The position numbers were made by a program, and so were the translations under genes. Positions 6,999 to 60,224 of a stretch of DNA of 64,000 nt are shown piece after piece. Every line of letters starts with the position of its first letter. Position 1 is the stretch's first letter. The notes beneath the pieces are model-generated. The model had not been told where the DNA came from and ran no database searches. It was given only the letters and a program-made list of their open reading frames with translations. This DNA comes from Isoetes taiwanensis (Eukaryota > Streptophyta > Lycopodiopsida > Isoetales > Isoetaceae): assembly GCA_021234155.1 (NCBI GenBank), contig JAJEKV010000036.1:6409079-6473078 (forward strand), written 5' to 3'.

Positions 6999-7142
6999 TA
7001 ATTTCAGCTTTACAACCTCAAATGTTGAAAATTTTCAAAACGCCTCTTCAAACCGATGGCCAAACAAGGTAAAATGAGGTTATTTAAAAAAAAGGGTGCA
7101 TGAAATTGTATTTTGAGCCCCCCCTCCTCCCGCCTAATGACT

Positions 7143-7581
7143 AATTTTTTTATGGAACGATAGAAATGACTTCTTTTAAGTGACACTTTTCCTTGCAAAT
7201 AGAATTTTCTTCAAGCATGTTTTCAGAAAAAACCACCAATTTAAGAGGGTATAATATTGAACAAGAAATTGAAGCAAAGCTTGTAATTGAAATTGTAGTA
7301 TTCTCAAAATGTGAAGATAAAATCTTCATATTCAAATGCAAAATTTACAGTCTTCTTTTAAGACTCAGCTATGTACAAAAGTATGAGGAGTGATGAGAGA
7401 GCGATCCAGCACATCATCATGTTCATTTATGCCATCCTCATCACCTTCACTTCTTTCACTGTCACCCGAGGAAGTGCTTGAGTTGTCTTCCTCATCACTA
7501 TCAACAGATGGTGAAGCATTGCCACCACCACTCCCTTCTTCATCCTCTTCCTCGTAATTACAAACCTTTTTAAGCAAATTG
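7143..7581. repeat. 439-bp tandem direct repeat, copy 1
   Basis: Nearly identical to 7,582-8,020 at a constant offset of 439 bp (for example ATGGAACGATAG at 7,152 and 7,591). On the minus strand each copy encodes a 70-residue acidic, Ser/Gly/Asp-rich peptide ending in a stop. It could be the C-terminal tail of the transposase whose other part is at 17-19 kb, but that link is inference. Confidence 0.9.
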
Positions 7582-8020
7582 AATTTTTTTATGGAACGAT
7601 AGAAATGACTTTTTTAATGTGACACTTTTCCTTGCAAATAGAATTTTCTTCAAGTATGTTTTCAGAAAAAACCACCAATTTAAGAGGGTATAATATTGAA
7701 CAAGAAATTGAAGTAAAGCTTGTAATTAAAGTTGTAGTATTCTCAAAATGTGAAGATAAAATCTTCATATTCACATGCAAAATTTACAGTCTTCTTTTAA
7801 GACTCAGTTATGTACAAAAGTATGAGGAGTGATGAGAGAGGGATTTAGCACATCATCATGTTCATTTATGCCATCCTTATCACCTTCACTTCTTTCACTG
7901 TCACCCGAGGAAGTGCTTGAGTTGTCTTCCCCATCACTATCAACAGATGGTGAAGCATTGCCACCACCACTCCCTTCTTCATCCTCTTCCTCGTAATTAC
8001 AAGCCTTTTTAAGCAAATTG
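7582..8020. repeat. 439-bp tandem direct repeat, copy 2
   Basis: Second copy of the unit at 7,143-7,581. It differs at scattered single positions and both copies keep the same frames. High identity means the duplication is young compared with the decayed sequence around it. Confidence 0.9.
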
Positions 8021-8130
8021 ATAGTCCTCTAGCGTAGATGATTGTCAGATTTCAATTTAAAATCATAGCACAATATAGTCACGTCATTAATATAGCGCTC
8101 GTGCAACACAGGGGGTTTTTCGTAGGGGAG

Positions 8131-10954: not shown

Positions 10955-13541
10955 TTATATAGGCGAGTTGCATCTAAGTTTGCATCCAAACTTCTTGTGA
11001 CTTATTTTTATGAAAGAAAGTGAGCTAAAAGCCCGCTCATCTTCTACGCTACCAAGTATCATTGTCAAAATCAGATTTGCCAACTTAATGTATTCACTCA
11101 AGGCAGCCTTTAGATAATCATGAGAGGTTAACTTCATCCATAATCTTGTAACAGCCCCTTGCTCTAGTGGCTTTTCTAATAGCCCATATTGGGCATACAT
11201 AGTAGTACCAAATAAGCCCGATTGTTCTTTCAATGCTTCAAGATCCAACACACCATTAATTTCCACACCATCAACCACATGGCTAGCACAAAAATGATCT
11301 CTCAAGACACCTAAACTAATAGTAAATCTGGGAAACAATACCTCATGCGTTGTAGCATTATTCCAGAAATTGGGAAATACAATACCCATTGCATCCAGGA
11401 GTTCATCTCGAGGAAATCTAGATCGTAATTCTTGAGATAGAGATTCTGCCACAGATTTCATCTCGTTTCTTATAGATGTAACAAGTGAATCAAAGTCTGA
11501 TTCCTTCACTTCCACCTTCCGCTTATAATTATTTCGACCACTCTTCTTCCTATGATACAATGGAAAAAACCTGTCATTAACATGTATGCATAATATCCCG
11601 CTGTCATTGTATGCCAAAAAGCTCCTGCCTTCCTGCAAGGAAACCAAGTTTTGCCATCTATAAAAGGCCTCATCCTTTTCAAAGCAATTATCTCCAACAT
11701 ATAACTTATCAAGTTTAGTGCATGCTATCTTTCTTGCAATTGAATACTCCGGAATGTAGATGGTTTTATCTTGAGCCTGTTTAATCAAGAAGGTTAACTC
11801 TCTAAGCAATGCAGTGAGAGCATAAAGAATTAACAAGGTTGTATGAAGTGCAAATAGATCTCGTACTGCTGCATCATTTTCATCAGCCAATTGTGTACAA
11901 GCCCTACAACAAAAACATTTTATTGCATAATCTACGAACATGCAAAGCTATGGATATCCATTGAGTTTCTACATCTTTTAGCAATTTTAGCCCCTCACTT
12001 AAACCTTTTGAAAATTGTTGGAAGTGAGCAAATCTTTGCGGGCTGCGACAATAAAACTGGTTAACTGCTTCTCAACCTTTTGAACACAAGCAAAGCCAGA
12101 GACAATTTTGAAAGGTACATTTGTTCGATGAGCCATACAATGTACTGCCACCATGTAAGGCAAAAACTGGGTGCGCAACCTAACGACCAATCGTATTGCA
12201 AACCGGTCATTACACTTGCTCCATCCGTACCAAAAGCAGATCAGCTTTCTTGCACAATCCATTGAACTCATATTTGCAATTTCATTTAACTTTTCTTGTA
12301 CCACATGATAAAGATTTCAACCATAGCATCCAAACGCAACTTTGTTATTCTCAGAAGGTATGATCGCCATTGAAAATCCACAAAATTATACAAACGCATA
12401 CAAAGCCATGATGCATTATCTTTTGCCGTGACTTCATCCAGAGACAAGGCTAAGAAGGTAGACCCTATGGCACATTCACAATCACAACAAGGGCTTAGTA
12501 TCATTCTAAGATGAAAGAAATTAGTTACTTTTAATTAGTTCACGTAGCTCCTCAAGTGCAACAAAGGACATGTCAGTTGCAAACTCTCAACCTGCATTTT
12601 TTGACCAATGACATCTTGTAATATTTGGTAGTCTATTTGCTACATTCAATATTTCATGCTCCGGGTAATCTTTGATTGGCCGACCATACTGGAGCAAATG
12701 TAGCACCACTCTCATTTGAATACATTTAGCCTCATACTCCAACAATTCAGCTTTTCAAACAGACAATGCAATTTGGTTGCTTTGTTCTTCTTTTCCTTCA
12801 AAAGTTCCTCATTTCTATAAAATAGTATTGCATTTCGTGCATGCAAATTCTTCTCAGGACCTTCCCATCCAGCAAATACATATTTAGTTACTCCATCCTC
12901 TATAATTTTCCTTTTCAATTTACCAACATGCCTATCAATACTGTTCTTCTTTGGTCGGAATAGTTTATCCGTCTTATTTTTCCAAGAGCAAATAGTGCAC
13001 TTTACCATTTTCCGCCCTTCCACATCGATAGGTTCCACGAAGGGATACTCTCTAAGCCAATCATTTTTGAAGTTTCTATTGGCATCCCATCGGCTGCACT
13101 TCCTCTCCTTATATGGTCCTCGCCCAAGCAGTTCTTTTTCCCCCGAAAACCCTTCGGGGCGGGGGTTTTTTAATCCTGGTAGTAATACGCCTGCTGCTCT
13201 CTCTTTGTACTTGGGTCCCATAGGCCAGTTGGTCTCCGTGGACGATAAAATCATATTCTATTCTATTCTATCTCATTTTCTGGACCAAAATCATCTGATT
13301 CTTCTGTCAACTCGTCAGGGTCATAATCCTTATCATCTGCAAATGCATAGCCTTCATCAAGCCCCTCAATTTGGTGTGTGAAAGTGGACGTAGACTCTGA
13401 TATAGTAATACGCCGCTTTGTCCTTGATGCCGCACCTCCCAAGAACTCAATTATTCTCTTTTGTGAAGCTCCCTCCATGCTGCACCAATTTAATGTTTGG
13501 GCATCAACCCTGTTTGCAAGCATCAAAAACCATTCTTGCAC
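10955..13541 (-). pseudogene. hAT transposase (BED zinc finger, RNase H-like core, dimerisation domain)
   Basis: Reads from 13,541 down in several frames. An N-terminal acidic segment is followed by a BED-type finger (KCTICSW then DRHVGKLKR, about 12,996-12,900). Next come core blocks with SLDEVTAKDNASWL near 12,440 and AVHCMAHRTN near 12,140, and a 328-residue open frame (11,941-10,955). That frame ends with GSVEDERAFSSLSFIK, the conserved hAT C-terminal dimerisation motif. At least three frameshifts separate the blocks, and the catalytic Asp region near 12,200 is frame-broken. Large hAT transposases are usually 600-800 residues, matching this span. Confidence 0.85.
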
Positions 13542-14157: not shown

Positions 14158-16907
14158 TTCTTGAATACTCATCCCAAGAGGATATATTTATAATGGGTGA
14201 TTTCAATGGCAGAACTGGCAGCCAGCAAGCGAATATCTTTGAGGATTTGGCAAATGTATGCCTTGATGAGCACGAAGACCCTGCATATGACAGATTTTCA
14301 GAGGATATAATATCCAATGAAATGGGTCACAAGTCGCTTGAATTAAGCACCACCGCCAACCGAAAATAATCAATGGAATAAAAGCTTTTCCACAATCCGG
14401 AAGGTCGACTTATAGGAATCATTTGGAGGCGGCACCATTGACTATCTTTTGGCAAGAAGCAAAGACCTTATTTCTGATTTCCATGTGGGAGGCTTGACTA
14501 CATGAGTCGGATCATGCCCCCTTGCATATAACACTTAAAGCTTTTGCCAAGCTAGAGATCTCTGCGAGCCGACTTTCATCCTCGTTTAAAAATCAGCTAT
14601 AAGCATCATGAAGCATATGAGAAAAAACATAGAAGAGCTTGTGGCTCTTTGCTACATGGTCGGGGATTTGGAGGCCCGATGCAAGAAATTTTCAAGGGCT
14701 CCTATTTGCGGCAGGGGAAAAAGGCATTTGGGCTCACAAAGAAATTCATAGCAGGTAAAACCTTGCAATTCGTGGTGGGATTGAGAATGTCGGGATGTTA
14801 GAAAAAGATTGCCACAAAATTGCATATGCAAGCCTAAATGGTACAAAGCGGTTCATTAGGAACAAAAAAGCGCTTACTTTGCTCAAAGGCAATCGGACCT
14901 ATCGAACAACCAACGAAATCTCCCAAAGTTTACGGAGTAGACCGCAGGAGACGACCATACACAAAGCTGCTCTAGATACCGAAGTCCTTTGTTAAAACAT
15001 GTCGGGGCTATATATGAGATAGATGCATATTTGAAAGCATGCCAAATCTAGCCACAACAACAGACCCTTTTTCAGAAAGGTGAAGTTAAAGAATGCTTAT
15101 CCAAAGCATCAAATAATAAGGCACGGGCCTTGGAGATGGCTTGTGTATGGAGCTTCTTAAATGGAGCGGGGAAAATACATTAGCTACCCTAACGGATCTG
15201 CTCAATAATAGCTTAATTCAAGGGCTACCAAGTAAGTTGGAGAATTAATAGGGTCCACCCGATCCATAAAGGAGGAGACCAAAAAGTTGCGAGGCAACTC
15301 TGAGAACTATTTTAATCGGGTGTTCTCAAAAATCTTGGGCAGCTTGTTAGAAGCAAAATTGAGCTCATGGGCTGAGCAAAAGAATATTCGCTCACATTAC
15401 CAAGCGGGTTTTAGGCGTAAAACATAGTACATTGGACCATGTGCTAACGCTTAGAGCGTTGATCGAGAAAGCCAAAGCTCCAAATGCATCCTGTACATGG
15501 CTTTTATAGACTTCACAAAGGCATTCGATACGATCTCACGCAAGGAACTCGGTGGATTAATTGAGATAGGTGCCCCTATGGAACTAAGGAGTGCAAAATA
15601 TCCCGGTTATCTGATGAAGTATTGATTAAGGTAGCATGGGACTTGGACCTTTGAAATCAGAAGCACCATAGGGGTTTGGCAAGGGCATCCCCTTTCCCAG
15701 ACTTCTGTTCGGAGTTTTCATAGATGAGTTAGATGATTGGCTTCGAGCCGGATCTTTAGCAGGAACAAAATTAGGCACATACATAGTGCAGCTTCTCCTA
15801 TACGCAGACGATGTAGTCCTTCTTGCTAGTAAGAAGGCAACCTTGCAAGATCATTTACAGAAGTTGGAGCAGTTCTGCGAAGCAAAAAAGATGAGTGTAA
15901 ACCTCTCGAAATCAAAGGTCATGGTTTTCGGGACAAGGGAGCGGCCTGTTTTCACATATAAGGGGCAGATTTTAGAAACAGTTGACTCATACAAATATCT
16001 AGGACTTGACATTGCATCCAATTACAGCTGGAAGAACTGCATAAATAGGCGAGTCTCAGGCGGTAAGGCAGCGTTATTTAGCATGATGGCGAAGTGTAGA
16101 AAAGCCTCCCTCACTGACTGGAACCTGAAGAAGATGCTATTCAAAACTCTTGTTCAGACAGTTGTGCTGTATGGTGCTCCAATTTGGGGGCCAGAAATCT
16201 CTTCAAGAATGTGGAAACAAATAGAGGGGGTCCAGAAGATGTATCTAAAGGAGGAACTTGGGATAAGATCACAGACTCCGTACGCCATAACTCTAGCAGA
16301 GACAGGTATGTTCCCGCTTGAGCTAGAAGGGCTTTTTCATGCTATAAATTTCTATAACAGGGTTAAAGCACAAAATCCGAATAGGTAACTGGAAAACTCA
16401 GAATGGCAAAGGAAGTTGTCGGCATGGGCTGGTAAATGGGGTTTAGAGAGCTCTTCATGGCCAACAGAGAAAGATGAAGTCCGAGCTTTACTTGAAAGGA
16501 TGGCATTGGAAAAATTATGGGCTGATCCAGGGAAGAGAATGCAACAATACCGGGCAGATGTTAATTGCATGAGGACATATGAGAGCCACCTATATTTAAA
16601 GGCTAACATCCCGCCAGCACAAAGGAAACTAATAGCCAGGTATAGAACCGGGTCACACAATCTGGAAATAGAAACAGGCAGATGGGCAAAAATACCAGCA
16701 GAAAACCGTCTGTGTAGAATATGCAAGACAGGATGTGTGGAAGACGAAAATCATACTTTCATACATTGTTCTGAATATGCAGATATTAGACACAACTTTG
16801 GCATCCAGGCCGAGGATTTCTCTTCACTGTTACATATACCACCAATGACGCTGGGACCATATATAAGGGCGGTGGACGCACACCGTTCCTTGCTATTAAA
16901 ATTGTAA
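14158..16907 (+). pseudogene. LINE ORF2, endonuclease remainder plus reverse transcriptase
   Basis: Directly after the hAT element the frame resumes with MGDFNGRTG (about 14,192), the AP-endonuclease GDFN motif, then GGTIDYLLARSKD and SDHAPLHITL (about 14,508). The reverse transcriptase follows with FIDFTKAFDT near 15,505 and YADDVVLLA at 15,800, the catalytic Asp-Asp pair, in an open frame to 16,388. The last frame (16,416-16,907) has a CRICKTG...HTFIHC Cys/His motif usual at LINE C-termini. Frameshifts and stops near 14,500-15,700 and 16,388 show it is dead. The final third is the best preserved. Confidence 0.85.
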
Positions 16908-16978
16908 ATTGTTGTTCATGTGCTCCATGGCCTCTCGAGGCCCAAGTGAGCATTAGACATTATATAATAATAATTAAG

Positions 16979-19060
16979 GTTCAACTCATCCCTACAACCC
17001 ACTTTCTTGGACTTTGTCCCTTTTCCTTGGCTTCTCATTTCTAGCTTATATCTACCTTCAAAAGCATTTTCTGAGCGTGTTGCAAGCCAATGAATCTTGA
17101 GTTTAGTGACCAAGCCTTCCTCCTTGACTGTATCAAGTACTTTCGCTATGAAAGGTCGACCTTTGTCATCCTCCTCGGTTGGAAGAGCAATCAGCATACC
17201 TTTGGCAATTTCTGTGATATTACCTTGAGGCTCATTCCTGCGTCTTGGTCCGAGGTACATGACTCGATCCTCGTCTTCTTCTACTGCAGGTGATAATGTA
17301 GCATTGCTTGGACCTGCTTGGTGCTGGGGTTAATGGAAGGTGTTAGGCCATTGAAATGGTTCTTGCAATTGACTTAGAGCTATGTTTTGTACAATGATTT
17401 TCTGTTCGAGAAAGAAATTTTCCCATCACATCCGATCTTCTTCTAAGAAGTACTTAAAGCCTGAGAAAATTCTATTTTCAATGGCTTTTAAGGATGACAC
17501 TGGGGTACTTTTCTTCTGCTTGGACTCCTTAGGATTTTTGAGAGGAAGTTGCTCAGTACGTTCTATGAAGCAAGTGTCTGGAATATATTTAAGGAAGCGC
17601 AATCCTTCTGGTGGACTCCAGTCCTTAGTTGTGGTGTACTTCTTCCCTTGTAAGAAGCTTTGTCCATCTTTCAAGTAGAACTTGATGTGATGTTGAAAGG
17701 TGAGATCATTCAACTTGTTCACAGCTTGTTCTCTATTCGAACGTTGAGAGAAAACAAAGTCACTGAAATCAACAGTCTCTTTAAGAAGCTCAATCACTGG
17801 AATGGGAGTGTAAGAATCTTCAATAATTCGAACTAAAGTAGGAAGAGAAAAAACCTTCTTCCTTTTAAGGCACACAGAAAAACTGCTAAACATTTAGTCA
17901 ATCCGATCATGAGTGTGGCCTACAAGCAAGAATCCGAGCTTTACTTTCCTAAAGATCCCTAGCTCCACTAACATGGCACAGTAAGCAAAGAGTGTTTAAT
18001 TCTTGTTCTCCCTTGTAGTACTGTCAAGTTGCAAGTAGAGCACTGGTGGTAATTACTCTTGCTCGCACAGGACCTTGTTAAGAATTGTAATTGTGAGGTT
18101 CGGGTCACCATGCAAGTTTGGATACGTCAAAAATACTTTGCACTTTAGACTTCCTTTGAAGACCATAGCTCCTACAATGTGGACCTTAACAAAACATTTC
18201 TCTGGCACATCTTTAGGAATGTTCAAGAAATGGGGTAGAGTAGTTTTTTTTTGATCCATTCCATCAATTACAATAGACATATATTGCAGTGGACTTTCGA
18301 GAGTTTTTTTTCTGTGCTTAGCAAGCTTTCTTCTCTCTGCGGCTTGTTGTTCACGATGTCTGGCAAGGTTCTGTTGCACATTATCTGTTGAAGAATTCAG
18401 GTCAAAATATTTCTTTAATCAAGAGAAGAGAACTTAAGCTTACTTCTTTCGACCTATGTCTTCGCAGTTTCTTGTTGACTCTTTAATTCTGCACACCTTG
18501 AGCAAACAGACATTCTGTGTCTCCTGGGAATTTTCACAAGACCGAATTCACTTTTTCACAGTCTGGTAAAGCGTGAGTAAGAGATATGCTGAAACGGAGT
18601 GCAAGTCTCTTTGTATTCGTTAAAAACATCTTTTTTGGTGATGTTATCTGTCAAATGATACATATTGCTATTAGGCAACTTCTCACAAGTTTCTCTAAAA
18701 TATTTCTCCATCCATGACACAGCAGCAAGGGCATGCATGGTTAAAACTCTTCTTGGTCTATAATGATCATCAATTGCTGGGTTTTTGTCCAGTCTTTTGT
18801 GCTGGACATTCTGGTGGACCCTAAATGGTAGACAACCATAAAGCATTTCTGGCAAACTTCTTCACAGTTAACGTAGTACAAGAAGGTGTTGCGGTCTGGT
18901 CTTATATGATAAGCCAAGTAGGCATTCTGGTCTGCCAATGTCATTGAACTGTAGTTATCTCTAATTGCTCGAAATTTAGACATGTTAAATTTGTTGATGC
19001 AACCCAATGAGCAGCTTTTAGTTCTTAAAAGTCTCCTCATTTTGTGCTCTCAAACTAAAA
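16979..19060 (-). pseudogene. DDE-type transposase family with IDGMDQ / LQLD / GHTHD motifs
   Basis: Reading on the minus strand from 19,040, the N-terminus has a Cys-containing CSLGCINKFN block, then EVCQKCFMVVYHLG. A central part follows (18,855-18,556). A frame at 18,379-18,053 has SIVIDGMDQKKTTLPHF. Then come LYLQLDSTTRENKN and FLLVGHTHDRID (about 18,030-17,890), and a C-terminal region down to 17,260-16,979. The three Asp-bearing motifs are the likely catalytic core of a transposase-like family common in algae, early land plants and invertebrates. I think it may match Pfam DUF7869, but cannot confirm that. Several stops and frameshifts are present. The C-terminus is cut by the LINE 3' end. 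Confidence 0.65.
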
Positions 19061-20928
19061 TCCACCTTGAATTTCTTGGTGGACTGGCTAGAGAATGTGT
19101 AATCTCGTTGCACCTCGTTGGTATCTTCATCTTTTGATGAGAGTTCTACTCAAGGGGTGACCTCCTCTGCCCTTAGTGGTGTGCTTGTAGAGGAAAAGCA
19201 GACCCACGTGGCATGCCGGATAAAGGCAGGCATGCACGGTGTTGAATGAAGGAGATGGGCCACAATACGCCGTGCCAGCAAATGTTGTTGCAGCTTCTTC
19301 ACAAGGAGTTCGTTCAAACATGTCTCTAAAGCCGAATGAAATTCTGCAAACCCATGTGTGACCACGGTTGTGTGAAGAGGAGTAGATGCTGCAAGGTCGT
19401 TGTTAACCACCTAGTGGTTAACATTGTGCATGCACATGTTAGGTGTCAGTGGTGGCAGACTGACACTTGGCATGATTAGGTTAACATAAGTGTAGGAATT
19501 AGATTAGTTAGATGTACTATTTCAGTTGCGGTCTATACTATATTAGGCAAGAGCCTCTTCGGATGTACTCGGGTTTGATCTCATATTTGGAGAGCCTCAT
19601 TTGGCCACGTTCCTTCACTCTTTGTACATATTTGTTTGTCTTCTTCTTGTTTTGTGATCATGAGCATGGCGGCTTTGTAGCATCCGGTGATCATAGGCTG
19701 GCTGCTTTGCAAGAGTGCATGCCAAGAACTCTCACAACTAACTTCTTGGCGCCGATTATTATAGGGTTAATTTCGTGATCACTTTCTTTTCGCCTTCTTT
19801 ACTGCTTTGTCTTCTTTGCTCTCATGCTTCTCTTTTGAAGATTTCTTGTATACTATTCTTCACCCTTTTGCCCAACCAAAGTCGATTTCGATTCTCGTAT
19901 CGGCTTGAGGCTTTAATTTTTCAAAACGACTAATGATTACGCCGGTGATCATGGTTTACAAAATGTGGCAATGGCATGGTGTTATTGCCATGAATCGATA
20001 GAAAGGTAAATTGGAGGTCGGAAATGGGAATCTTTGGTGGTTGTGGAAGTGCGAGCGTCGGCATGGTATTTTTGTAGATATGGCGGGTTGTTTTGAGCGT
20101 GCGGCTCATTGTCTTCTTTGGATATCAATTTCTTGTGTGCAATGCACAATCTCGGTTGTTGTGAATCCATCGCATCAAATAAGAGCGTAGATGTATATAA
20201 TCGAAAGATTATGTACGGAAGAATTGATTTCATAGAAGCTATCACATGAACTCAAGAATTTATAGTTCTCGATTCGTAGAATTAAAAGCTTGAAGTTCTA
20301 AAAAAGGAGAAGAATAGCCATAATATATCGGAGCAATTGCAATCATGAACGGAAAGCAAATCTTGGATTTATAATCCGACGTAAGCTTGGGCTTAAAAGG
20401 AATGGTGTATTAAAAGCGATATTTAATGAAGTTTTAACGAAACTTGACACTAAAATCAACAAATAAAACAACATGGGAAAGGTACCGAGTCCTTGATGCC
20501 TTGAAGAATTGTCGTCGGTGTGGCGGCGACAAAGTCTTTGGCGCCAAAATAATTTTGTGGTTGGCGCCAAGATCCTCTTCGACGTGTCGAGATAATAATA
20601 AACGGCAATTACATTGCCGAGCCACATCCCCCGATAGTTAGAGGGCAAGCCGGAATGTACACGTTCGCAAGAGGAGAAGAATTGCCGGGCTCCAATCTAA
20701 TCATGTGGGGAGTCAATTTTTATGACGTGTAAGCTTATAATTCGAAAACCCTGCCAGCTCTTAAAGGCCATTAGTGGAATCTGGGCCTTATTATGACGTG
20801 GAGCTGACATGGAGCCCCAAAGGGTGTCTTATAAAAATGACACAGCCTAAGATTGCTGTGGAAAAAGGGTCTAATATTCACCGGTTGATCCGATTTGTTC
20901 GAGCCTCCTATCGTGGTAGGAAGCGAAG
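19061..20928. other. Intergenic, no gene recognised; holds the GPN2 upstream region
   Basis: Frames here are short and without family resemblance. 19,430-19,930 is T-rich and looks like decayed LTR material, but no termini were found. The last few hundred bases before 20,929 must contain the GPN2 promoter and 5' UTR; no convincing TATA element was identified. Confidence 0.4.
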
Positions 20929-23266: not shown

Positions 23267-24762
23267 TATCACCTGTGGGAGCTAGTGGGAGCTAGAGCAA
23301 AACTATGTTTCAAAGATGTTTGATCCCTCATGAGATGTTTGATCCCTCGTGCCTATCTGTTGACCGGTTATGCAAGGCGTTGTCAAAATGGATATATCGT
23401 ACCTTACTAAGGCTGGTTCCTCATGGATCTGACATGGTCATCTTTCCCAACTGCCACATCTGTCATGGTCAATCCATTTTTATTTAGCACATCTTTCGGA
23501 ACACATGTTAATGTTCTGAAATTTTTTTAATGAAGATACTATATATCTTGTTACTTTTTGTCATTACTAGTATAAGATAACCTACTTTGTCTAACCTACT
23601 TTGTCTAGGCGGATTTTTTGTTATTCCTATGGAAAATGGAATCCATCTATGTCTATGGCCTTGCTTTGCAGCATAAATCTGCTCTGTAAAATTATTCTCC
23701 TTTGCTTCTATGTTATTAACAGCAGCTTCCATGCTCTGTAAAATTATTCTCCTTTGCTTCTATGTTATTAACAGCAGCTTCCATTCTAACTATTGCAGAA
23801 CTAGTGAAGAAGATTTAACTCGTCCATGATTTGAGCACCGAGTTAACAGTTTTGTGAACATCTATTTCTTTATAAAACATATATTTTGAAGTTCTTAGTT
23901 TATGGATTGTCATGATTTAATCTTGATTTCAATATTGAGTTCTTGTTTTGTGACCCAAAATTGTAGTGCTCATTATGGTCATGGTCCTTGCTGTAATTCT
24001 GGTCAGTTCCTGCCATGTCAAACTGCTGCTACATGCATACTATCAACCTCCAGATCAAATATAATATGCAACTATATTCTGAGAGGAATATGCTCTCTAT
24101 ATAGTTGAAATTGCAATAAAAAGGATGGATCTCTTTAACTTTTCATTTCTGTAATTGTATAGGGTACCTTCAGCATAAGCTTATGATGTATAACGTACAT
24201 GTAATATGGATGTAGTGATGGAAATCTTCAATACAGAATAGTTTGATGGACGTGCAAGACATCTCCATTGGCCTGCATTAGGTAGGTTTTCTTGCCTATA
24301 AAGTTATTCTCCTTTCCTAAATGCTGCAACCACACGATCTGCAATCTCTTGGCCAAATAACCTAGGCATATTAGAGCTTAGATCAATCTCTTGGCCAAAT
24401 AACCTAGGCATATTAGAGCTTAGATCAACCTGTGAACTTGTGAGATTATGCTATCCATGTTGTCTTCTGCGGCATCACCTGCTTCGCTAGTATCAAATTT
24501 CAACAGAATAGCTGTGGAAGAGCAAGCTTCTCATATAAAGTAATGATGACACAAAGTTCTCTGACCCAAAAATGCTTGCAATTTTTTTGCGCACATTCTC
24601 AATCTCTGTATCCTCATAATATTGCTTCAAATATTCTGTATCTAGAACCAGGTTAAGTATTCTAGAAAATTTCCAAGTTACTTAAATACTTGAGCAAAGA
24701 TTAGCTGGCCAGAGATTAGCAAGCTATGTGTGACTGTACCACCTCTAGGGAAATACAAAATA
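23267..24762. other. GPN2 3' flank with short tandem duplications
   Basis: No gene recognised. Contains perfect tandem duplications of 52 bp (23,681-23,732 and 23,733-23,784) and 42 bp (24,342-24,383 and 24,384-24,425), plus shorter ones near 23,290, 23,330 and 23,590. The 3' UTR of GPN2 should end within the first few hundred bases; no single polyadenylation signal stands out. Confidence 0.5.
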
Positions 24763-25060
24763 TGAATCGTGATTTATTGGGAAAAGGAAGTTTTGGAAAG
24801 GTTTATAAGGCAGAATCGTGTGGCTTATTCGGTTGTCATCAAAGAGTTTGAATATGAAGATGTCTTCTGGAAAGAAAAGAATGCAGTAGATAATTTTCTT
24901 TCTACTGATTGTCACATATTGTGCAAGTGCTTGGCCATGCAAAAAATGATGACAAACATTGCTTGGTTCTAGAGCTCATGGATTGTAATCTAAAGTCTCT
25001 TATTGATAGCAAGAAGAAATCAAATGATCCTCCATTCTTTCTTCTTTACGTTTTGACTTT
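24763..25060 (+). pseudogene. Protein kinase N-lobe fragment
   Basis: Three frames in succession read as one kinase. LLGKGSFGKVYKAE (24,772 on) is the Gly-rich loop. VVIKEFEYEDVFWKEKNAVD (24,832 on) carries the ATP-binding Lys, and IVQVLGHAKNDDKHCLVLEL (24,918 on) covers strands 4-5 to the hinge. Two frameshifts separate them, and sequence homologous to kinases ends near 25,050. The style is that of plant TKL/receptor-like kinases. A C-lobe piece in the same orientation lies at 48.07 kb, but a shared origin is unproven. Confidence 0.7.
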
Positions 25061-25288
25061 CTTCTTTACGTTTCTTATATGATTTCCCAGCCCACTTCAG
25101 TAGAATTCCTCGCCTTCACCAACTATCAAGATCAACTCTCATGTATGCAAATGGCATGTATGGGTCAGATATGAGGCATTAATTCTCTGGACCACGTGCA
25201 AAGATGTTCAGAAATCCCTGCAACACCTGAGTGAGATTTATAAAGAAGGGACATGTAAGTAACTCACTAGGCAGTTGGACTAATGCTA

Positions 25289-25560
25289 TTCGAGAATACA
25301 AAAACCTATTCTGGAATATTGTTTGGTGTGATGCATTTGCTGTGTGAGTGCATGAGTCCTATTCCAGAATACACTAGTCCAGACTGTCTGGACAAGACGT
25401 ATTCCGCTGTACATAGAAATAGATAACAAACAATAGCCTACCTTTAAAAAGGAAAATTGAGCACCTTAGTTGCGTATTCCGCTTTCAGAGATTTAGTCGC
25501 CAGCCTAAGCGCCTTCTTTTCTATTCAGAGTTGATGTATTCCGGTTTACATAGCGAAAAT
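25289..25560. repeat. Scattered ATTCCGGAAT-type palindromes, outer 5' group
   Basis: Variants of a GTATTCCGGAATAC palindrome occur at about 25,291 (ATTCGAGAAT), 25,309 (ATTCTGGAAT) and 25,361 (ATTCCAGAAT), with half sites at 25,401, 25,475 and 25,537. The same motif continues in the hairpin cluster and in the introns of the downstream gene. Confidence 0.7.
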
Positions 25561-25622
25561 TATGGACAGGTAAGCATGTAAAGTACATAGTACGTCTTTT
25601 GTCTCTGTTTTAGTTTACTTTT

Positions 25623-25912
25623 GTGGGCAAAGTGCATTCCGGAATGCACTTTGCCTTTCGTTGGAAGGGCAAACACTTTGGCCTTCTCATGTGAGCAAAG
25701 TGTATTCCGAAATACACTTTGCCTTTCGTTGGAAGGGCCTTTGGCCTTCTTGTGTGAGCAAAGTGTATTCAGGAATACACTTTGCCCTTCAGGCGAAAGG
25801 CAAAGTAAGGGCAAAGTGTCCGGAATACACTTTGCTCACATAAGAAGGGCAAAATGTATTCTGAAATACACTTTGCCCATCCAACAAAAGGCAATGTGTA
25901 TTCCGGAATATG
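25623..25912. repeat. Hairpin cluster: six palindromes of the GGCAAAGTG-TATTCCGGAATA-CACTTTGCC type
   Basis: Six related inverted repeats occur at spacings of about 40-70 bp, with centres near 25,641, 25,709, 25,772, 25,822, 25,863 and 25,905. Several extend to arms of 13-15 bases (GGCAAAGTGCATTCC / GGAATGCACTTTGCC). They are separated by CTTTCGTTGGAAGG-like spacers. The cluster ends about 220 bp before the first coding sequence of the ParB-methyltransferase gene, so it sits where a promoter or origin-like region would be. Confidence 0.9.
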
Positions 25913-27488
25913 TTTCTCGGATTTTTGGAAAATAATGTCCTTTTTTTGTTGTTTTTAGCCTACACAAATCACTTTTTAGCTAAATTAGAACACGAAAAAG
26001 CATGCTTGTGCAACTTTTTTCTGGCCGTTTTTTCTTCTTTTTGCTTGCATTTAATGCACAAATTAACAATTCTTATTCTGGAATATAGTTTTCGTTCCTT
26101 TTTTACTCGTGACAGCGTTGTTTTAAACGTTGCTCTGGCAGACAAGAAGGAAGCAAGAAGGCACCAAAGAAAGTGCTTAAGATTGTTCAACGGCCACATC
26201 CAATGAAGCAGACTAGGGACACAGATGTGCCTGCGATTTACGAAAATTTTCAAACACAGTGGTTCGTAACCAGAGGTGCAGGCGGCAAGTACAACACACT
26301 GACTTTTCTTCATGTTTGCAAAAGCCCTGGGAATAAACGCTATGCCGACTCTGAGTTTGTCAACCTTGGGACAATAAAAGATGTTTCTGAGGTTGCTGGT
26401 CAAGAGGTCAAGTGGGGAGGCTATCTTTCAAGACCTCCCAGGGCTACATTGTTGTCGATATTGCAAGCTTCAGAATCGTCAGTGTGCAACCACAGGAACT
26501 GTACAAGTATTTCCCATCACCGGAACAACAAAGCCTAGCTTCCATTATTAGACAGGTTTGTTCCAGTCAGAGCGAGGACTTTCTTGTTAGTGAGTCCAAG
26601 CATGAGGAAGCAGCTGAAGAATCTCCTTCTGCTAGTACTTCTGGGCGGAAAAGGACGGAAGCTCAGAAGAAGAAATAGAGGAGCAGCCCAAGAAACTTAG
26701 CAGGCCAAGAGACACCGTAACTGCTAAGGAACCAAAGAATAGGAAAGTACAGCAGCTTGAAGTAGTAGAGATCCCCAAGGAAAGCACAAAAAAGAGAAAA
26801 GGAAAAGGTAAGGCACCTGGGGTTACAATAAAGGAAAAGAATCTTGATAAGACCTCTGAAAGAATGGAGGTAATAAACAGAGAAAAATTTGTACAAAAGG
26901 GGTGATCTATCTTCCTAAGAATGAAGCTGGTGAACGGCCACTTCAGGTTCGAAAAATCTATGCCGGTCACTTGAGGAACCTGAAGGACAGAATAAGGAGC
27001 AATCTGAATGCTCATGTGGCCCCAATCGTTGTCCTTGTTGACAGGGAGCAGTGCACAACCCCCCAAGACTATGACAGGAAAAATGCAGACACCTACACAC
27101 ACTATGTCTTGGGAGGTAATCACAGCTTCAAAGCAAGAAGGCAACTATATAAAGAGAAGAAGAACCCAAGGTACCTCTCCGTCCTGTGTGCTGTTTACTA
27201 TGGTCTTACTGATGAAGAAGCAAAAATCGTTGCCAACACCCACAATGCTGACAATGAGTACAAATTAAAGATGAGCTTCGTCGACAAGATCAGGTTTATG
27301 CACAGGGAATACGTTATTTTCAAGGAAAAATACGGCGAGGACCTAAATAAGCCAGCGTATAGCTTAAGGAGGCATGCGCCATTGAATGCTGCCTGAAATA
27401 TGACGAAGCCAACAAAAGGCAGTCACTCATTGGCCATGACAACTGGTTCCAATTGGCTTTTAGAGATGGCAAGGTACACACATAACGT

Positions 27489-27498
27489 ATTCCGGAAT
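27489..27498. repeat. ATTCCGGAAT palindrome in intron 1 of the ParB-methyltransferase gene
   Basis: Perfect ATTCCGGAAT, 15 bases inside intron 1 (27,474-27,582). Confidence 0.85.
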
Positions 27499-27880
27499 AA
27501 CAAGTCCTACTAATGTTTTGCTTAGATTTGTTTGTGTCTAGATTTACTTGTCCACTAGGTGACTTAACATTTTCTTGAACAGATATGGGAACTCCAGGCC
27601 GAAATATTTACAATGTTCGAACGCAGGGAGTTGAAGAGCAAGGGAAAGGAGACAACAAAGAAGAAAACCTCAGACGTGCCTAAAAAAGAAATGACTATTA
27701 CCGTCTGGAGGGAATTGCAGAGCTTCTCCGACATAAAACTACTAGAGCGGCTGCTCCAAAAAGTTGTTGACAGGGAGTTCAGCCTCGAAGAAATGTCAAA
27801 GAAATTGCACAAGTAAGTTCTCTGATACAAGCTTTGCTCTTTGGCTGTTGTTGTCCTAGTAGCATCGGTGTAGACTGTGT

Positions 27881-28032
27881 ATTCCAGAATATACAAGCCT
27901 TCTAGTAAACGAGCAATGTGTATTCTAGAATACACTTTGGTGTGTTCGAGCAGAAAAAGCTTTTAAACCTTAGAATTTTTGTCTTAGAACAGACACTCAT
28001 TTACTAGACAAATAAAAACAGTATTCCGGAAT
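27881..28032. repeat. Three ATTCCGGAAT-type palindromes in intron 2
   Basis: ATTCCAGAAT (27,881), ATTCTAGAAT (27,922, inside the 18-base palindrome GTGTATTCTAGAATACAC) and ATTCCGGAAT (28,023) lie in intron 2 (27,813-28,167). Confidence 0.85.
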
Positions 28033-28869
28033 ACAAAATGATTTCACAGTAGCAGCATATTTCATTTCAAGATAGCAAATACAAATTGCTTTACTTCGAA
28101 TTGTTTTCCTTCAGTCTTGTTTTGTTTCACTTACTTCCTAACGCAGTGTTTCCTTTCTGTCTTGCAGCCAGAAAAACGTCATAACATGTCAAACATGTTT
28201 GATGGAGCAGCTAAACGTTGAAACTTAGGAAAGATGCAAGGAGCTCTACCCTGTAGCCACCTCCGACGAGCGCATTCTACAATACGCACCAAATTTTGAG
28301 GGCTGGGTAAGTAATCTCGATTCCTTTCCTCTTCACCAGCGATGTGTTAACAGTTGTAGTTTTGTTTTTTCATACAGAGCAAGAAAAAGAACAAAGACCT
28401 TCCCAAGGGCTTCATGCACTTGGTTAGAACTGCACGGGAAGAGAGGTCATTAGCTGAAAGAAGGATTGTTCATGCAGGACCATCCGACTATGAAAGATTT
28501 TGCATGTTTGATCAAAACAACCTATTTTCGATCATTCATGGCGATTGCACGAACCTAGTCGGAACAGTAAAGCCGCAAAACTTTACTTTGGTTCTTGCAG
28601 ACCTTCCTTATGGGTTTAAGCTTAAAGATAGCTGATACGATGACCAGCCCTTCAAATTTCCCGAGTTCAACGCGTTCATTGATGGCATCAAGAGATCACA
28701 ACGGCTAAACATTGGCATCTAGTTGTGTTCCATTCTAGTATGCAGGCAGGCTTGGTAGAACCAGCTTTTAAAAACCACTTCAGTTCTCCAATTCGAGGCG
28801 GGGATATGAAAACACAGTGCGGTAAGTCTTATTCGAATCTGATTACTAACCTCTTCAATTACGTCTCGT

Positions 28870-28879
28870 ATTCCGAAAT
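28870..28879. repeat. ATTCCGAAAT site in intron 4
   Basis: One-mismatch copy of the palindrome in intron 4 (28,822-28,950). The 71-bp intron 3 has none, and no copy was seen in an exon. Confidence 0.75.
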
Positions 28880-29609
28880 AGGATTACTTTGTTTCTAGTT
28901 TTCGAACTGTTTTCTTGTTTTTTCTAACATCACTTCTAATATTTCACTAGGTACAAAATGAACATCAATTATCATGGTGCAGGACCAAGGTTACTCAGCA
29001 AGGTGGAGTACCTTCATGTTGCTTACTGGAGTTTTGATGGGAAGAGAACCATGGAGCACTTCAAACACTTGCTTTGTCAAAAATTTTCAAACGTCCTAGA
29101 GTTTCCAATGGTCTTACGAAGTTGGGGACCCAAATGCACAAGGCAGGATTGTAAATCACTATGTAAATGCACAAGCTCATCAAACATCTCTTGGACATGT
29201 TTTTGCGTCCAGGAGATTGGGTGCTTGATTCTTTTTCTGGTTCTGGCACTACCATTGCATGTGCACTTAAGAAGGACCACAACCGTAGCCGTGGATATTG
29301 ATAAGGAGGTCAAATTTTGTGAGGATGAGGCCCGGGTGCCTTACCTACTTTACCAGATGAAAATCAAGAGTTAGGGGCCAAGTCTTCATCTGATTATGCT
29401 AAGTGACGTCCTCAGAGATACAGTCTCCTTTCTTGAGCTCACTAGATGACGAGGCCACCTTTGCAAAGCTTAAAGAAGTAGCTTTAGCTACCATTCCAAA
29501 GGACAAGGCAGAAGCAAAAGGTAAGTCTCCAGCAAAGGAACAGACGGCAGAGAAAGAAAGTGCTGAGACCAGCAAAAAAAATGATGAGGACTATGATGTA
29601 GATCTTTGA

Positions 29610-30453
29610 CTACTTTATGCTAAAATCATTATTATTTACTCCAATGGATTGCCATTATTGATGTACAGAATTTTATTAAAAAAATAAAATTATTTTTTCC
29701 TTTCTATTCTGGTGCTTTTTTTTTTGTCTTAATTTCAGTCTTTTCAAGTTGATGCCTAAATTTTGCCTCTTTCATAATTTTCTTTTCATAAGTACAAAGT
29801 TGTCGCCTAATGATGGCCCTAAATGATAGGAAAAAAACTCCGAACCTTTACAAATTCTCAACAACTTTCAAAATTGGCTAATTTTAGAAACGTGGAGTTT
29901 TTTAAAAGGGAATCTATGAAATGGGAGTGTCGCAACACTCCCATTTAATTTGCAACAGTGTTGGCCATTGTTGTGGCCCTACCATATGTCATTTATGCAC
30001 AAATTTGTGAGGGGGTACTTGAAAGGAGTGAATATATTTGTTGCCTAATCTAGTAAATTAACTCAAATGCAGCAGACAAACCAATCTCTGTTATCGACAA
30101 AGTGTGGTTAACTGCAGGTTGTGAACATTTCAGACCAGGATCTAGTTGATGTTAGTGTGTTCATGCTTGAAATTTTAAGATTAGAAGTAACAAAAGCTGG
30201 AGCTGAGAGGAACATATATATTGGGAAGTATGTAGGTGCATGAATCTTGTACTTTCAAATCACTGTATATCTTTCTTATGTACATAATTGTTACTGTAAC
30301 CTCGATACATTTGAATGAAAATTCATATTCAATTATATGTTCTTTGTCACAAAATAAGGCATTACGTCTTCAAAAGAATTCAAGTCTTCAAAAGAAATCA
30401 AGACAAACTCATTTTCACAGCTGAAGCACAGAACTTCAGATGAGTTCTGAAAA
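29610..30453. other. Intergenic, 3' flank of the ParB-methyltransferase gene
   Basis: No gene recognised. An AATAAA-type signal lies at about 29,682 in AT-rich DNA, suitable for 3' end formation of the preceding gene. Confidence 0.4.
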
Positions 30454-32862
30454 TTACAGAATAGTTTTACATTTCATCCTCATCAGAAAGAACTCGGGTA
30501 ATTTCTGTAAGATTTTCTCTTCATCTAAAGGATTCTGCCTATATACAGTCCTGTTTTGACGTTTAGTTGATGTCATATGAAGTCTGATTGCACAGATATG
30601 TGTTGTGAATACTATGCCCTTAGCGTCTTTACTGCAAAGATCGTAGCTGCTGGTTGATCTTACGCCCTTCTTGTAATACATACCTTCTACGACACTATCA
30701 CCGGTGAGTTACCATGCTCCATTGAGTTGGAAGTCTTTATCCACTATCCATTTTGGTTTTGTGCATATCAGAATCCAAAATTCAGCACCCTCATCATTCC
30801 CTTTCGGAGCAACGACAGCAAAATTATCACCAACTCTAAGTGCCGCTGCTAACATCGTGGGATTGGAGGAGGACAAGGACTTGTTGGATTTACGGTCCTC
30901 CTCAATGTCAGCATGCACATTGGAGGATGGTACAATAACTTGAAGTTTTCAGTTATCAACATAGTCCTTGTTCACACAACTGTCCCACATGCCATCCAAG
31001 CAATAGCTGCAGAAGCATGAAAGTTCCCTCGTATGCAACTGCAATGGAGACCCAAGATTGAATGCATGTACAAAATCCTTTCTGCACATCATGTTTTCTT
31101 TCTATCTATATCCTCCACCTTGACTTTCCAAAAGAAGTCCTTTTGCTGGTTTCAGATGTGTTCATCCACTCGGATGTTCCATAAGTAAACATCTCTTCAG
31201 CAACTTCTACTACTTCATGAGCATTACCCAATTTTATGCTGTTGTATTTTAATTACAGTTGTCTTAACCATCTCTTCAACTCAGCAACCTTGCCATCATG
31301 TCACCTTTCCTGTGGTTAGAACAAAAAAAATTCATCATATAGACTTCAGTGTCGTTTGTATACCTAGCCACAAGGTAAAATGGTCTAGAAGCCTTGAATT
31401 GAGATGCTGCACCATCTGAAAATACATAATGTCTCTTTGGCACCCTTCCTTTCTGCTCCAGATATTTGTGGTGCTTCATGAAGCAGTGTTGCACGAACAA
31501 AGTATCGTGTTCCCTATCATCTGATACATCGTAATGTGTTTCCTTGATAATCTCATCTGCCACTGAGTCATACTGATATGTTATTTGAACCAAAATGGTA
31601 ATCTGGTTATTGACCCAGTGCATCGACTGCATCTCCTCTTGTTTCTTGAATGTATAGTTCTCTGCAAAATCCACTACCGAAAGACATGCATCTGTTGGGA
31701 TATTCTCCAAAAGCTCCTTAAATTGTTTTGCCTGCCATTGGTACCTGAAATTATACAGTGGAAAGATTTTTAGATGCTCTTTCAGTTTATCTAGAAGCTC
31801 CTTGGGTTCTGTCTCATTGTATTGATGAGTCAATCTCTTACCAGAACTCAAGACGTTGTCTTTTTCATAGTCAATGTACTCCCATTTCACTTTCCTGTTA
31901 CTGCCACTTTCTTCCATGGGACATGTCTGAAACTTCTTGATTCCACACAGCTCACAATCTCCAAGGATGCATGCCTTCTTATGAAACTCATCTAATTCAC
32001 TCTTTGGACACAATATAGATCTCCACAGGCTTCCTGTACTTGCATTAGAGGAAATTTGAGATCTCATTTCATCCCCATAAGAATCCTCCAATGGAATGGC
32101 TTACCCTCTATTAACTGCAATTAATACAGCACCAACAACTTCATTGCTGTTGTTTTCCCCCCATAACTTTTGATCCACTTGTCAAAATGTTGCGGCGTTT
32201 GTTGCATTAGATGCGGAATGAAAAGATCTTTCCAATGATATATGGTTATGATGTATTTCAACATGGTCATATGCGTTAACCTTAAAAAAATATGATTTTT
32301 TGCTTATTTCTTATATATTTATATCGTAAAAGATGTATGAAGGGTTATCACTAGATAGATCTTGTGAAGACGAACACATTGCTACAAAAAGTTTTTGAAT
32401 CGGAGTTCTGGATCAAAAGTTATAATGAAAAAATGATACTACAGAAGTTAGTTGCATCTGCATTAATTACAGGCTGCCACATGATACTGAAATGAGATAT
32501 ACTGGAGCTCTTCTCTTATTGGACAGTTTAAAAAGCTGACATAGCATTTTAAGCATCCCTTAATGGGACAAAATGTGATCTCATTTTTCCTCTAATGCAA
32601 TTTTATATTGGTATGCCCTGCATTGACCAAGTTCATGTGATCTACATATATCACAGGTGCAAGTGCAATTCTTCGGATGTTTGGATCTCATCCCATTATG
32701 TCCATCCACTAGCATGTGCATCCTCACATGCCGAATACGACAGCAACTATTGAGGTCCTTCAATTTCACAACAGACCAAGGTTTTAGCTTCTCAAAAGCT
32801 CGAAGACGAATCTTAATTTGTGGATATTGGTCATTGAACCACTTGAACAATAGCATCTGCAT
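30454..32862 (-). pseudogene. DFAENY/SDG-motif transposase family, minus-strand copy
   Basis: The N-terminal part (32,862-32,581) has an AFEKLKPWSVVKLKDLNSCC segment and a CTCTCDICRSHELGQC Cys cluster. A 271-residue open frame (32,091-31,276) carries CELCGIKKFQTCP, SVVDFAENYTFKKQEEMQSMHW, a DDREHDTLFVQ block, YVFSDGAASQFK and FFCSNHRKGD. A C-terminal piece (30,918-30,709) has VGDNFAVVAPKGN. The two Asp motifs (DFAENY and FSDG) are the likely catalytic positions of a DDE-type transposase. The family is widespread in invertebrates and early plants as uncharacterised proteins. It is homologous, block for block, to the plus-strand copy at 34-37 kb. Gaps between frames may be introns or damage, and no termini were found for this copy. 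Confidence 0.65.
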
Positions 32863-57472: not shown

Positions 57473-58811
57473 AGCCGGCTACGGATATATCCACGTTCCC
57501 ATTATCCTTGTCCGTGCTAGTTGTTCCTTCCTTTTTCTATTTGTCACTCAAATACAAGAACAACTTAAAATGGATTTGATCATTGTCAACGATTGGTTCA
57601 TGCTTGGGACTTGGCTTTCCTATGTTAAAGCTGCTCCATAGTCAACCTTATTTGCAAATCGCCAAACTTGAAAGGCACCTTCAACCTGACAAGCTCAGCT
57701 TTTGAGAAAGCTCTGTCCACCCATATAGATTCTTGTGATTTCATTCACCCTACATCATGCCTCATGTTCATCCTAGGAAGACAATTTCCATGCCAGACAG
57801 TCCAATACAATCCTTTTTTTACCACCATGGGACCACCTCCATTTACTTGAGGACAACAACCTTCCTTCGCAGGACAATTGTCAAGAGATAGGATTGTGAG
57901 GAAACTAGACGTGTTGCTTAAAAGCCTAAATATAAAAAGTCTAATTGAGGTAAGTTTTTATTTCTTAGTGATAACTTCAGATAATAACAAATGCATGTCT
58001 CTGCGGAGGTGAATTGAAGCTAACCTTTTTGGATATTCCTGGAGCTTTGCATATGTTAGATATCCAATGTTTCTGTTTTTCTGCCACTAAATTCTCATTA
58101 AAATTACTCATCCAATCCAAACAGCTCATCCCGTTCTATGCTTCAACACAATATATTTTCATGTTGCACCGGTACTTGCTTTCACAAACAAAAATTTGAT
58201 CTCCACGAGGATCACTCTTTGTACAGCTTCAATGAATCCCTGTATTATTGCTATTTAAATTGTTACGAACCAAAATTTTTAGTCCGAAAAAAGCTTCGAT
58301 TTATATTCACATAAACCATCAGAGTACACAAAACAAGTATTGCCTCCCACGATGTTATATACATGAAAGCCACGTATACAGATAACAAGATGACAATACA
58401 TGATAACTATATACACATGTAGTCCCGCCAGCTATCAAACAGCCTGCACATTCTTCCACGTGTTAGTAATATATATGAGACTCATAGAGTCAACATGAAG
58501 CAATGACTGATGGACTGCAAGAACACACATATGGAATCCACCACATGCACCATAGCATCTGCCATGCAGTTGCACCCCACCATATCTAGACGATACGTTG
58601 TCTAGGACCCCCGCGCTAGTGGATCCAGTGTAAGGGAGAAATTGCAAGCAACAGGAATTCTCAGAGCATATAGACTATTGGTCAACATGCACCACCGTCC
58701 TATACTAACAAACTGTCCAAATGTAGGTCTCTACTAGTTTCAGAGGTTTAAAATTAAAAGCAGATAAAAAATTCAAAGAGGAAGATGAATACATTTACAA
58801 CATGCTTCAAT
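57473..58811. other. Intergenic, no gene recognised
   Basis: Only short frames, none with recognisable features. Confidence 0.35.
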
Positions 58812-59901: not shown

Positions 59902-60224
59902 ATAGAAGAGGAATCTATCTCAAAAAAGGGCTAGACAAAAGAAGATAACTAGGGAAAGGGCGAGCAACCAAAATGGGGAAAGCGCGAAAGAAAGATGACC
60001 GTAATAGAACAGTAACGGGAAACAAAAAGGCTAGGCAAAGCGAATCGAGAACAAAGGCTATGATAAAAGAGGCACTAAGAAGGCAAAAGGACTATGGCGA
60101 GCCATAAGGTGAGGCTTAACAAACAAAGGAGTCCAGGATGCCAAGACGTTTCAAGAAGGACCAAGACGTTTTTGAAAGGATAAGTGAAAGAAGGAAAATT
60201 ACGAGTAAAGGGCCAAAAGACGAA

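Follow-up and report, generated by a model that had tools for sequence, protein, structure and literature searches.

We analysed a 64,000-nucleotide stretch of the genome of the quillwort Isoetes taiwanensis (assembly GCA_021234155.1, contig JAJEKV010000036.1, positions 6,409,079 to 6,473,078 of the forward strand; hereafter the window), in which positions 26131-29609 hold a five-exon gene copy with broken frames. Read against other copies in the genome, this gene encodes a class-beta amino-methyltransferase (MTase) with a ParB-like region ahead of it. The gene is almost certainly an accessory gene of a DNA transposon family, and the non-coding parts of these transposons bear repeated 12-bp palindromes of the form TAT-N6-ATA, whose outer triplets are common to the family and whose centre is specific to each lineage of the element. 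The overall explanation that we favour, with somewhat better than even confidence, is that the accessory ParB-like/MTase protein would recognise the palindrome arrays of its own lineage.

The element is a DNA transposon of 8.2-8.8 kb with terminal inverted repeats (TIRs), and 4-bp target duplications were present in all six elements that were traced to both ends. We picked six 10-kb stretches (L009-L014; L003 is the L014 locus) for their long open frames and compared four upstream extensions (L015-L018) with them. Four full copies, of 8274, 8202, 8284 and 8760 bp, each lay between identical 4-bp flanks (AATA, CCTA, TGTT and ATGA). In the genome as searched (1,658,258,908 bases in 1110 contigs), the left TIR occurred 1012 times (531 + 481) with at most two mismatches, and its reversed control did not occur. 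Searches with the ParB-like core and the MTase exon gave 150 scored matches of 3058 and of 2094 first-look candidates, respectively, many with long open frames, so that the gene in the window is no mere chance pattern; the MTase profile PF01555 gave 150 scored matches of 1444 candidates and DUF7869 150 of 9908, all of these counts being lower bounds in which only the best candidates were scored. Transposable elements make up 37.08% of the published assembly, according to the available text of its description (PMC8566536).

The left arm of the element carries a DUF7869 gene on the minus strand, divergent from the MTase gene (PF25273, E=2.3e-52 on the open copy in L010); the amino-MTase gene, as spliced from L009, and the DUF7869 gene of L010 thus occupy opposite strands of TIR-bounded elements. 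In the DUF7869 protein, the block LDNTTREN is intact in 19 of 20 alignment rows and GHTHDQID in 16 of 20. Because of its position and copy number, the DUF7869 protein is probably the transposase. The DUF7869 profile matched none of 14 control genomes, and no paper naming the family was found in the literature searched. The 4-bp duplication agrees with the Sola-1 superfamily, which makes duplications of this length in common with other superfamilies; a Sola-1 placement would be suggested by this duplication and by the parallel with an Ectocarpus element discussed below.

Within the window, exon 1 (26131-27473, plus strand) holds the ParB-like core (26860-27396) behind an N-terminal region and has a broken frame; its left coordinate marks the limit of the span described here. 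It is followed by intron 1 (27474-27582), exon 2 (27583-27812, IWELQ...KELHK), intron 2 (27813-28167), exon 3 (28168-28306), which is a linker containing CQTC in other copies, exon 4 (28378-28821), with the MTase catalytic motif IV DLPYGF, and exon 5 (28951-29609), with MTase motif I (D-FSGSGTT) and a C-terminal tail. A preliminary description, made from the letters of the window, had placed GGNHSFKAR, DLPYGF and DSFSGSGTT in this order in exons bounded by GT and AG and had called the copy frame-broken. The three motifs do lie in that order on the plus strand, in open reading frames (ORFs) at 26860-27396, 28360-28635 and 29167-29301. The GT/AG borders read from the sequence (27473/27583, 27812/28168, 28306/28378 and 28821/28951) match those of other copies at exons 1 and 2 and, in an alignment of exons 3-5 with six further copies, those of the majority; some copies are without a splice site, such as the exon 3 acceptor in L009. 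The frame breaks and stops exist in the assembly itself.

The MTase region is a class-beta amino-methyltransferase by its sequence, with motif IV before motif I. The description had named this N4C/N6A family and domain order and had proposed a PF01555 search, which bears it out: PF01555 matched both the window fragment (29167-29301; E=5.6e-9, 36.7 bits) and the spliced L009 copy (E=1.7e-18, 67.9 bits), above the cut-off of 26.7 bits. The L009 test sequence consisted of exons 4-5 with one stop written as X, and its match, to profile positions 94-217 of 221, leaves out motif IV. Matches covering both motifs came from the PHROG 67 DNA methyltransferase (6.3e-26), the NCBIfam CcrM model (4.5e-13) and the best solved relative in the PDB, the adenine methylase CcrM (6pbd, E=5.8e-12). 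In a 13-row alignment from which L036 and L046 were left out for low coverage, motif IV appears as D[LI]PYGF in 12 rows, the exception being the broken L045. Motif I is complete in 8 rows; it is degraded or absent in L012, L014 and L045, carries one substitution in L040 and is cut by the stretch end in L043. It reads DSFSGSGTT in the window and DAFSGSGTT in most other copies. The usual class-beta motif IV is DPPY, in place of the quillwort D[LI]PYG, and as a rule an aspartate in this motif points to N6-adenine rather than N4-cytosine. By this rule only, the predicted product would be N6-methyladenine, with N4-methylcytosine less likely.

The codons of the ParB-like region are under purifying selection. 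Over 627 bases of its core, subfamilies A (L009, L010, L014) and B (L011-L013) share 80-82% DNA identity and 96-98% protein identity. Nonsynonymous divergence (dN) between them is 0.024-0.035, and synonymous divergence (dS) is saturated and not computable in all nine A-versus-B pairs. Within groups, dN/dS is 0.064-0.081 (A, three pairs) and 0-0.025 (B, three pairs), in copies picked for long open frames, a choice that favours lower within-group values. That choice does not account for saturated synonymous change together with a conserved protein between the groups. These comparisons suggest that a working protein was maintained during much of the family's history.

We then considered the palindromes. 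In lineage I, to which the window copy belongs, they sit in the divergent promoter and in introns. All ten TATTC..GAATA sites of the window fall inside the element (25287-28022). The region between the divergent genes (25254-26110), which corresponds to the promoter, contains TATTCNNGAATA palindromes with a 63-bp period; intron 1 contains an exact TATTCCGGAATA palindrome at 27488; and intron 2 contains palindromes at 27880, 27921 and 28022, where other copies have an array spaced by 41-42 bp. Exact 12-mers occur in intron 1, intron 2 and, at position 6524 of L009, intron 4 of the MTase gene. Over the 17 loci of all four lineages counted below, none of 144 palindromes in the gene spans falls in coding matches, which make up 36-40% of those spans. 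Between L014 (A) and L012 (B), the cores of the intron-2 units are 0.93 identical and the spacers 0.32. The exact sequence TGTATTCCGGAATACA occurs 3392 times in the genome (reversed control, 0); any repeat of like copy number yields such a count, and the evidence is the pattern, not the count.

The palindromes are also regularly spaced. Among 1006 close pairs genome-wide, 46 of the first 50 distinct pairs listed, several of which are related copies, are 41 or 42 bp apart. Spacings are mostly 41-42 bp in lineage I and 40-41 bp in lineage III, and in lineage II they cluster at 21, 28-32 and 41-42 bp, with a best period of 10.35 bp in the range 9-12.5 bp; none of 5000 uniform draws matched the coherence at 10.4 bp. 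As the copies are related, these spacing statistics and those on lineages below are not strict probabilities. The promoter array at window positions 25618-25790 has a period of 63 bp, about six helical turns, versus 41-42 bp elsewhere.

Fourteen further DUF7869 loci (6 + 8) were compared, of which 9 contain ParB-like sequence (partial in L046) and 8 an MTase. TATTC..GAATA was absent from the first six. Instead, loci with ParB-like sequence carry another palindrome with the same outer triplets; their perfect 12-bp palindromes are framed as TAT-N6-ATA in, for example, 22 of 22 cases in L036, 25 of 26 in L037, 19 of 20 in L040 and 11 of 14 in L038, and in fewer in L033 (6 of 13) and L044 (5 of 8). 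Over 17 loci, counted without the array-free L034, L041 and L042, the exact 12-mers of lineage I all have the centre TCCGGA (27 in 6 loci), those of lineage II AAATTT (106 in 7 loci) and those of lineage III GCGCGC (22 in 3 loci); lineage IV (1 locus) has five GAATTC centres and one AAATTT. The lineages are labelled by their centre, and identity tables group the loci identically. Between lineages, readable copies are 48-66% identical in DUF7869, 31-64% in the ParB-like core and 31-65% in the MTase; these values are query-anchored, and broken copies such as L012 and L014 read lower for DUF7869. Lineages II and IV are the closest pair. Exact counts genome-wide were 7218 for GGTATAAATTTATACC, 1551 for CTATGCGCGCATAG and 13 for GGTATGAATTCATACC, with reversed controls of 0; by eye, 5 of the 13 GGTATGAATTCATACC sites, one of them L033, lie within 5 kb of a listed DUF7869 or PF01555 place. 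A search for arrays with other centres, covering the class whose first base is C or T and whose second is not C, found none (reversed control, 18). The matrix of lineages against centres is near-diagonal, and the motif arrays are element-specific and lie in non-coding regions, as is the case for the sites of VANC proteins.

Non-autonomous relatives bear the arrays as well. Two non-autonomous elements, at L031:159-3936 (3778 bp) and L032:149-3884 (3736 bp), are 83% identical, have TIRs of the same type and 4-bp duplications (ATAC and TTCT), and keep palindrome arrays near both ends. The interior of L031 gave no translated match to the full elements, and its right part aligns with the exon 3 region, which identifies these elements as derivatives.

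Taken together, the pattern makes the arrays likely candidate sites for an element-encoded protein, while DNA modification of the arrays is a proposition on which we are evenly divided. From the sequences we infer that the enzyme may recognise and mark its own transposon. The ParB-like/MTase protein would bind the arrays of its lineage as a dimer, with the palindrome centre setting lineage specificity and the common TAT/ATA flanks providing a shared contact or a methylated adenine. The spacing of the arrays would line up numerous protein molecules along one side of the double helix, whereupon the MTase would mark nearby adenines or cytosines, perhaps in TAT/ATA, on the element's own control regions. 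The mark or the bound protein could keep the divergent promoter active or tune transposition. The likely benefit would be genes expressible despite host silencing, or timed transposition, in the manner of the VANC proteins of Arabidopsis VANDAL elements, which are not known to be methyltransferases; by this analogy, anti-silencing is a tentative suggestion. In its fullest form the proposal is a self-recognition code, in which a ParB-like reader and an MTase writer would act on helically phased TAT-N6-ATA arrays (N6-methyladenine or N4-methylcytosine), with four exclusive identities, a central hexamer that changed in each lineage together with its protein, and, in effect, an epigenetic label of self that would act in trans on the non-autonomous relatives. 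We put this version forward as a speculative one, somewhat short of an even chance.

Several observations weigh against self-recognition by the ParB-like/MTase protein, beginning with the identity of its putative reader. The preliminary description had called this region a ParB-like domain and had proposed a hidden Markov model search with PF02195 (ParB_N). That search gave no match across the genome at E<=1, although 11 of the 14 control genomes do match, and what stands of the claim is a set of ParB-type matches all below curated cut-offs, where such cut-offs exist: NCBIfam ParB TIGR03764 (E=1.7e-4, far under its cut-off; 3 of 7 lineage members at E<=0.1) and PHROG ParB (E=0.0054). DUF6551 also matched below threshold (E=0.0044-0.013). 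An hhalign comparison with six phage ParB-like domains, run with both a narrow and a diverse alignment, was negative; PDB searches with a single sequence and with a diverse profile did not find ParB; and 3 of 7 members of the set also matched an unrelated Pfam family, which reached E=3.2e-4. We use the name ParB-like because the ParB matches are sub-threshold, the hhalign and PDB searches were negative and an unrelated family scored alike; the ParB label is marginal. A tblastn search of the core in phages gave no match, none of 8 pattern matches in a scan of viral contigs was confirmed, and the predicted structure of the window ORF alone had a mean pLDDT (predicted local distance difference test) of 42.8.

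Further points on the same side concern the arrays. The exon 3 stretch retained in the non-autonomous elements means that their arrays may persist by descent. Of 103 lineage I palindromes in the window and six other copies, 30 have CG as their central dinucleotide and 56 have CA or TG, as deamination of host 5-methylcytosine would produce; any protection of these sites is therefore incomplete. In lineages I and III the spacings lie near one value each, and the best fits (9.8 and 12.45 bp) therefore do not yield a period. Lineage IV is represented by a single locus, and the long-frame choice of the copies compared for dN/dS counts on this side too. What the sequences show is how the arrays are arranged, how their centres follow the lineages, and that selection has acted; binding, methylation and expression are predicted.

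The reader of the arrays might instead be the DUF7869 protein, the probable transposase, with the MTase acting elsewhere. The three proteins co-diverge across lineages, DUF7869 identity tracking them like the others, and the DUF7869 protein could therefore read the arrays; moreover, the non-autonomous elements keep arrays close to both ends, and transposases often bind repeated sites. The arrays of full elements, however, are internal, in the divergent promoter and the MTase-gene introns, away from the ends, and exact 12-mers stand in introns 1, 2 and 4 of the MTase gene itself; we consider this alternative unlikely. Locus L045 bears on the choice of reader: its palindromes share the GCGCGC centre with those of L038 and L044, loci to which it is 63 and 56% identical in the ParB-like region, 72 and 76% in DUF7869 and 40 and 35% in the MTase, although this is a single locus whose broken MTase lowers the last figures. 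Because the centre is shared despite low MTase identity, it may go with the ParB-like region or with DUF7869, and not with the MTase. We also compared DUF7869 loci with and without ParB-like sequence: at least five TAT-framed palindromes occurred in 9 of 9 ParB-positive and 1 of 5 ParB-negative loci (14 loci; p=0.005). This control was dropped. In L034, L041 and L042 the homology to array-bearing copies stops short of where the arrays would lie, as if these loci were truncated or rearranged, and the contrast is therefore not relied on; these three array-free loci leave DUF7869 as a possible reader.

Self-methylation by the ParB-like/MTase protein could also time transposition, coupling transposase expression to replication, rather than counter silencing. 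Dam couples IS10/Tn10 transposition to replication in this way, CcrM, the closest solved relative of the quillwort enzyme, is a replication-coupled adenine methylase, and the arrays lie in the promoter common to the DUF7869 and MTase genes. The same data fit anti-silencing equally, and by inspection the four palindromes themselves are without GATC or GANTC; we regard timing as an improbable account, on a par with reading by DUF7869. Binding by a host transcription factor is far less credible. The sequence TTCCGGAA does form a two-unit heat-shock-type TTCnnGAA site, but the other lineages have AAATTT, GCGCGC or GAATTC centres in the same TAT/ATA frame and at similar positions, and no single site of this type explains four lineages. 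The preliminary description had left open domestication or a DNA-modifying mobile element, with intact relatives elsewhere in the genome. A domesticated host methylase akin to the bryophyte N4-cytosine methyltransferases would share with this gene its splicing, its plant genome and its amino-MTase family. Such a gene would be expected as one or a few fixed copies lacking transposon ends, whereas this family has thousands of candidate places scattered through the genome, together with TIRs and target duplications; these contradict domestication for the window copy and make it hardly tenable for this gene. The mobile part of the other proposal is upheld by the dispersed copies, the TIRs, the duplications in 6 of 6 elements and the divergent DUF7869 gene, and copies with long open frames were indeed found.

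Comparable arrangements are known outside land plants. In the brown alga Ectocarpus, Sola1-1_Ec32 carries a gene for a ParB-like region and an N4C/N6A MTase opposite the transposase, and the available text of that report (PMC12477816) cites green and red algal cases and suggests that such proteins may bind and modify their own transposon. Compared by this published description, the quillwort element is alike in having its MTase gene on the strand opposite the (probable) transposase, and can be regarded as a land-plant variant of this algal-type transposon gene. It differs in length (8-9 kb versus 21.5 kb), in its land-plant host, and in having features that the text on Ectocarpus does not mention, namely four lineages in one genome with matching palindrome arrays and array-bearing non-autonomous derivatives; the Ectocarpus table gives a single Sola-1 family with 1989 in what appears to be the copy column (PMC12477816), so high copy number is no difference. 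VANC proteins, as far as the text available for PMC5735166 goes, bind motif repeats specific to each VANDAL element, which lie in introns and upstream of genes, and lower the methylation of these elements. The likeness extends to short non-coding motifs that differ between related elements and change together with the protein; the VANC motif YAGTATTAY, unlike that of the quillwort, is non-palindromic and in one orientation, and VANC binding and methylation loss have been demonstrated (PMC5735166), whereas the quillwort arrays are sequence features. Fungal TET/JBP dioxygenase elements are likewise DNA transposons with a DNA-modification enzyme, one that in the accessible description oxidises methylcytosine and is unrelated to the quillwort MTase (PMC12730594).

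Among enzymes, CcrM and its class share with the quillwort protein the order of motif IV before motif I (6pbd, NF050803), and differ from it in that the quillwort gene is spliced, transposon-borne and preceded by a ParB-like region. The Methanoculleus virus Blf4 protein QXM18669.1 is a partition-annotated protein with a methyltransferase C-terminus and an N-terminal part similar to phage proteins that bear the annotation ParB or pNOB8 ParB N-like. It likewise has no Pfam ParB match, and its N-terminal set gave no significant profile match to the quillwort region. No report of a land-plant ParB-MTase transposon was found among the listed hits of the literature searched, which did not extend to subscription journals and Repbase. 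As far as those hits go, the occurrence in a vascular plant, the several lineages in one genome, the non-autonomous derivatives and the lineage palindrome arrays as candidate targets are new here.

Three blocks of the window copy (7068-8090, 16973-19400 and 25254-29962) are collinear with the full copies, and two insertions, some 8.9 and 5.9 kb long, lie between them; the DUF7869 arm of this copy, these insertions and the palindrome arrays go beyond what the preliminary description covered. The first block (plus strand; blastn against the four full copies, 80-88% identity) is a left-end fragment corresponding to element positions ~91-656 with a local duplication of ~510 bp, the first ~90 bp of the copy, left TIR included, being missing. 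The second (minus strand; blastn, 84-87%) is a remnant of the divergent DUF7869 gene with broken frames in its ORFs. At the right end, a subterminal inverted repeat, AAATGGGAGTG...CACTCCCATTT, lies at 29919-29946, and the right TIR at 29936-29962 (minus strand) closes the element at 29962. By eye, the 8.9-kb insertion contains an ORF with a hAT-transposase-like end (10955-11947, minus strand) and a non-LTR (long terminal repeat) reverse-transcriptase fragment (15672-16907, plus strand; LLYADDVVLL). The second insertion (19.4-25.25 kb) contains a protein-kinase-like fragment, GKGSFGKVYKAE (24720-24972, plus strand; by eye), possibly a captured or interrupted piece of a host gene. Beyond the element, a 274-amino-acid open frame with FSDGAASQFKASRPF (31276-32100, minus strand) has no Pfam match above cut-off and is perhaps another transposase-type protein, and positions 58000-64000 show an AT skew of up to 0.27-0.48 across 6 kb with one ORF of at least 200 amino acids. 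Short indels were compared with CAG/CTG sites, where base-calling errors at methylated cytosines would make them cluster; 25 of 159 touch these triplets, too weak an excess over the 16.1 +- 3.8 expected to support a claim, and short indels at CGC/GCG were more enriched (19 versus 2.7 expected).

Many copies, four natural specificity variants and candidate palindromes make the idea of self-marking directly testable, as each lineage predicts the sites of binding or modification by its own enzyme. The mark could be looked for in the nanopore reads behind the Isoetes assembly, if they come from native DNA. If the proposal is true, it would mean bacterial-type base modification in vascular plants, a genomic parasite that labels itself, and a ready set of enzymes with swapped specificities.

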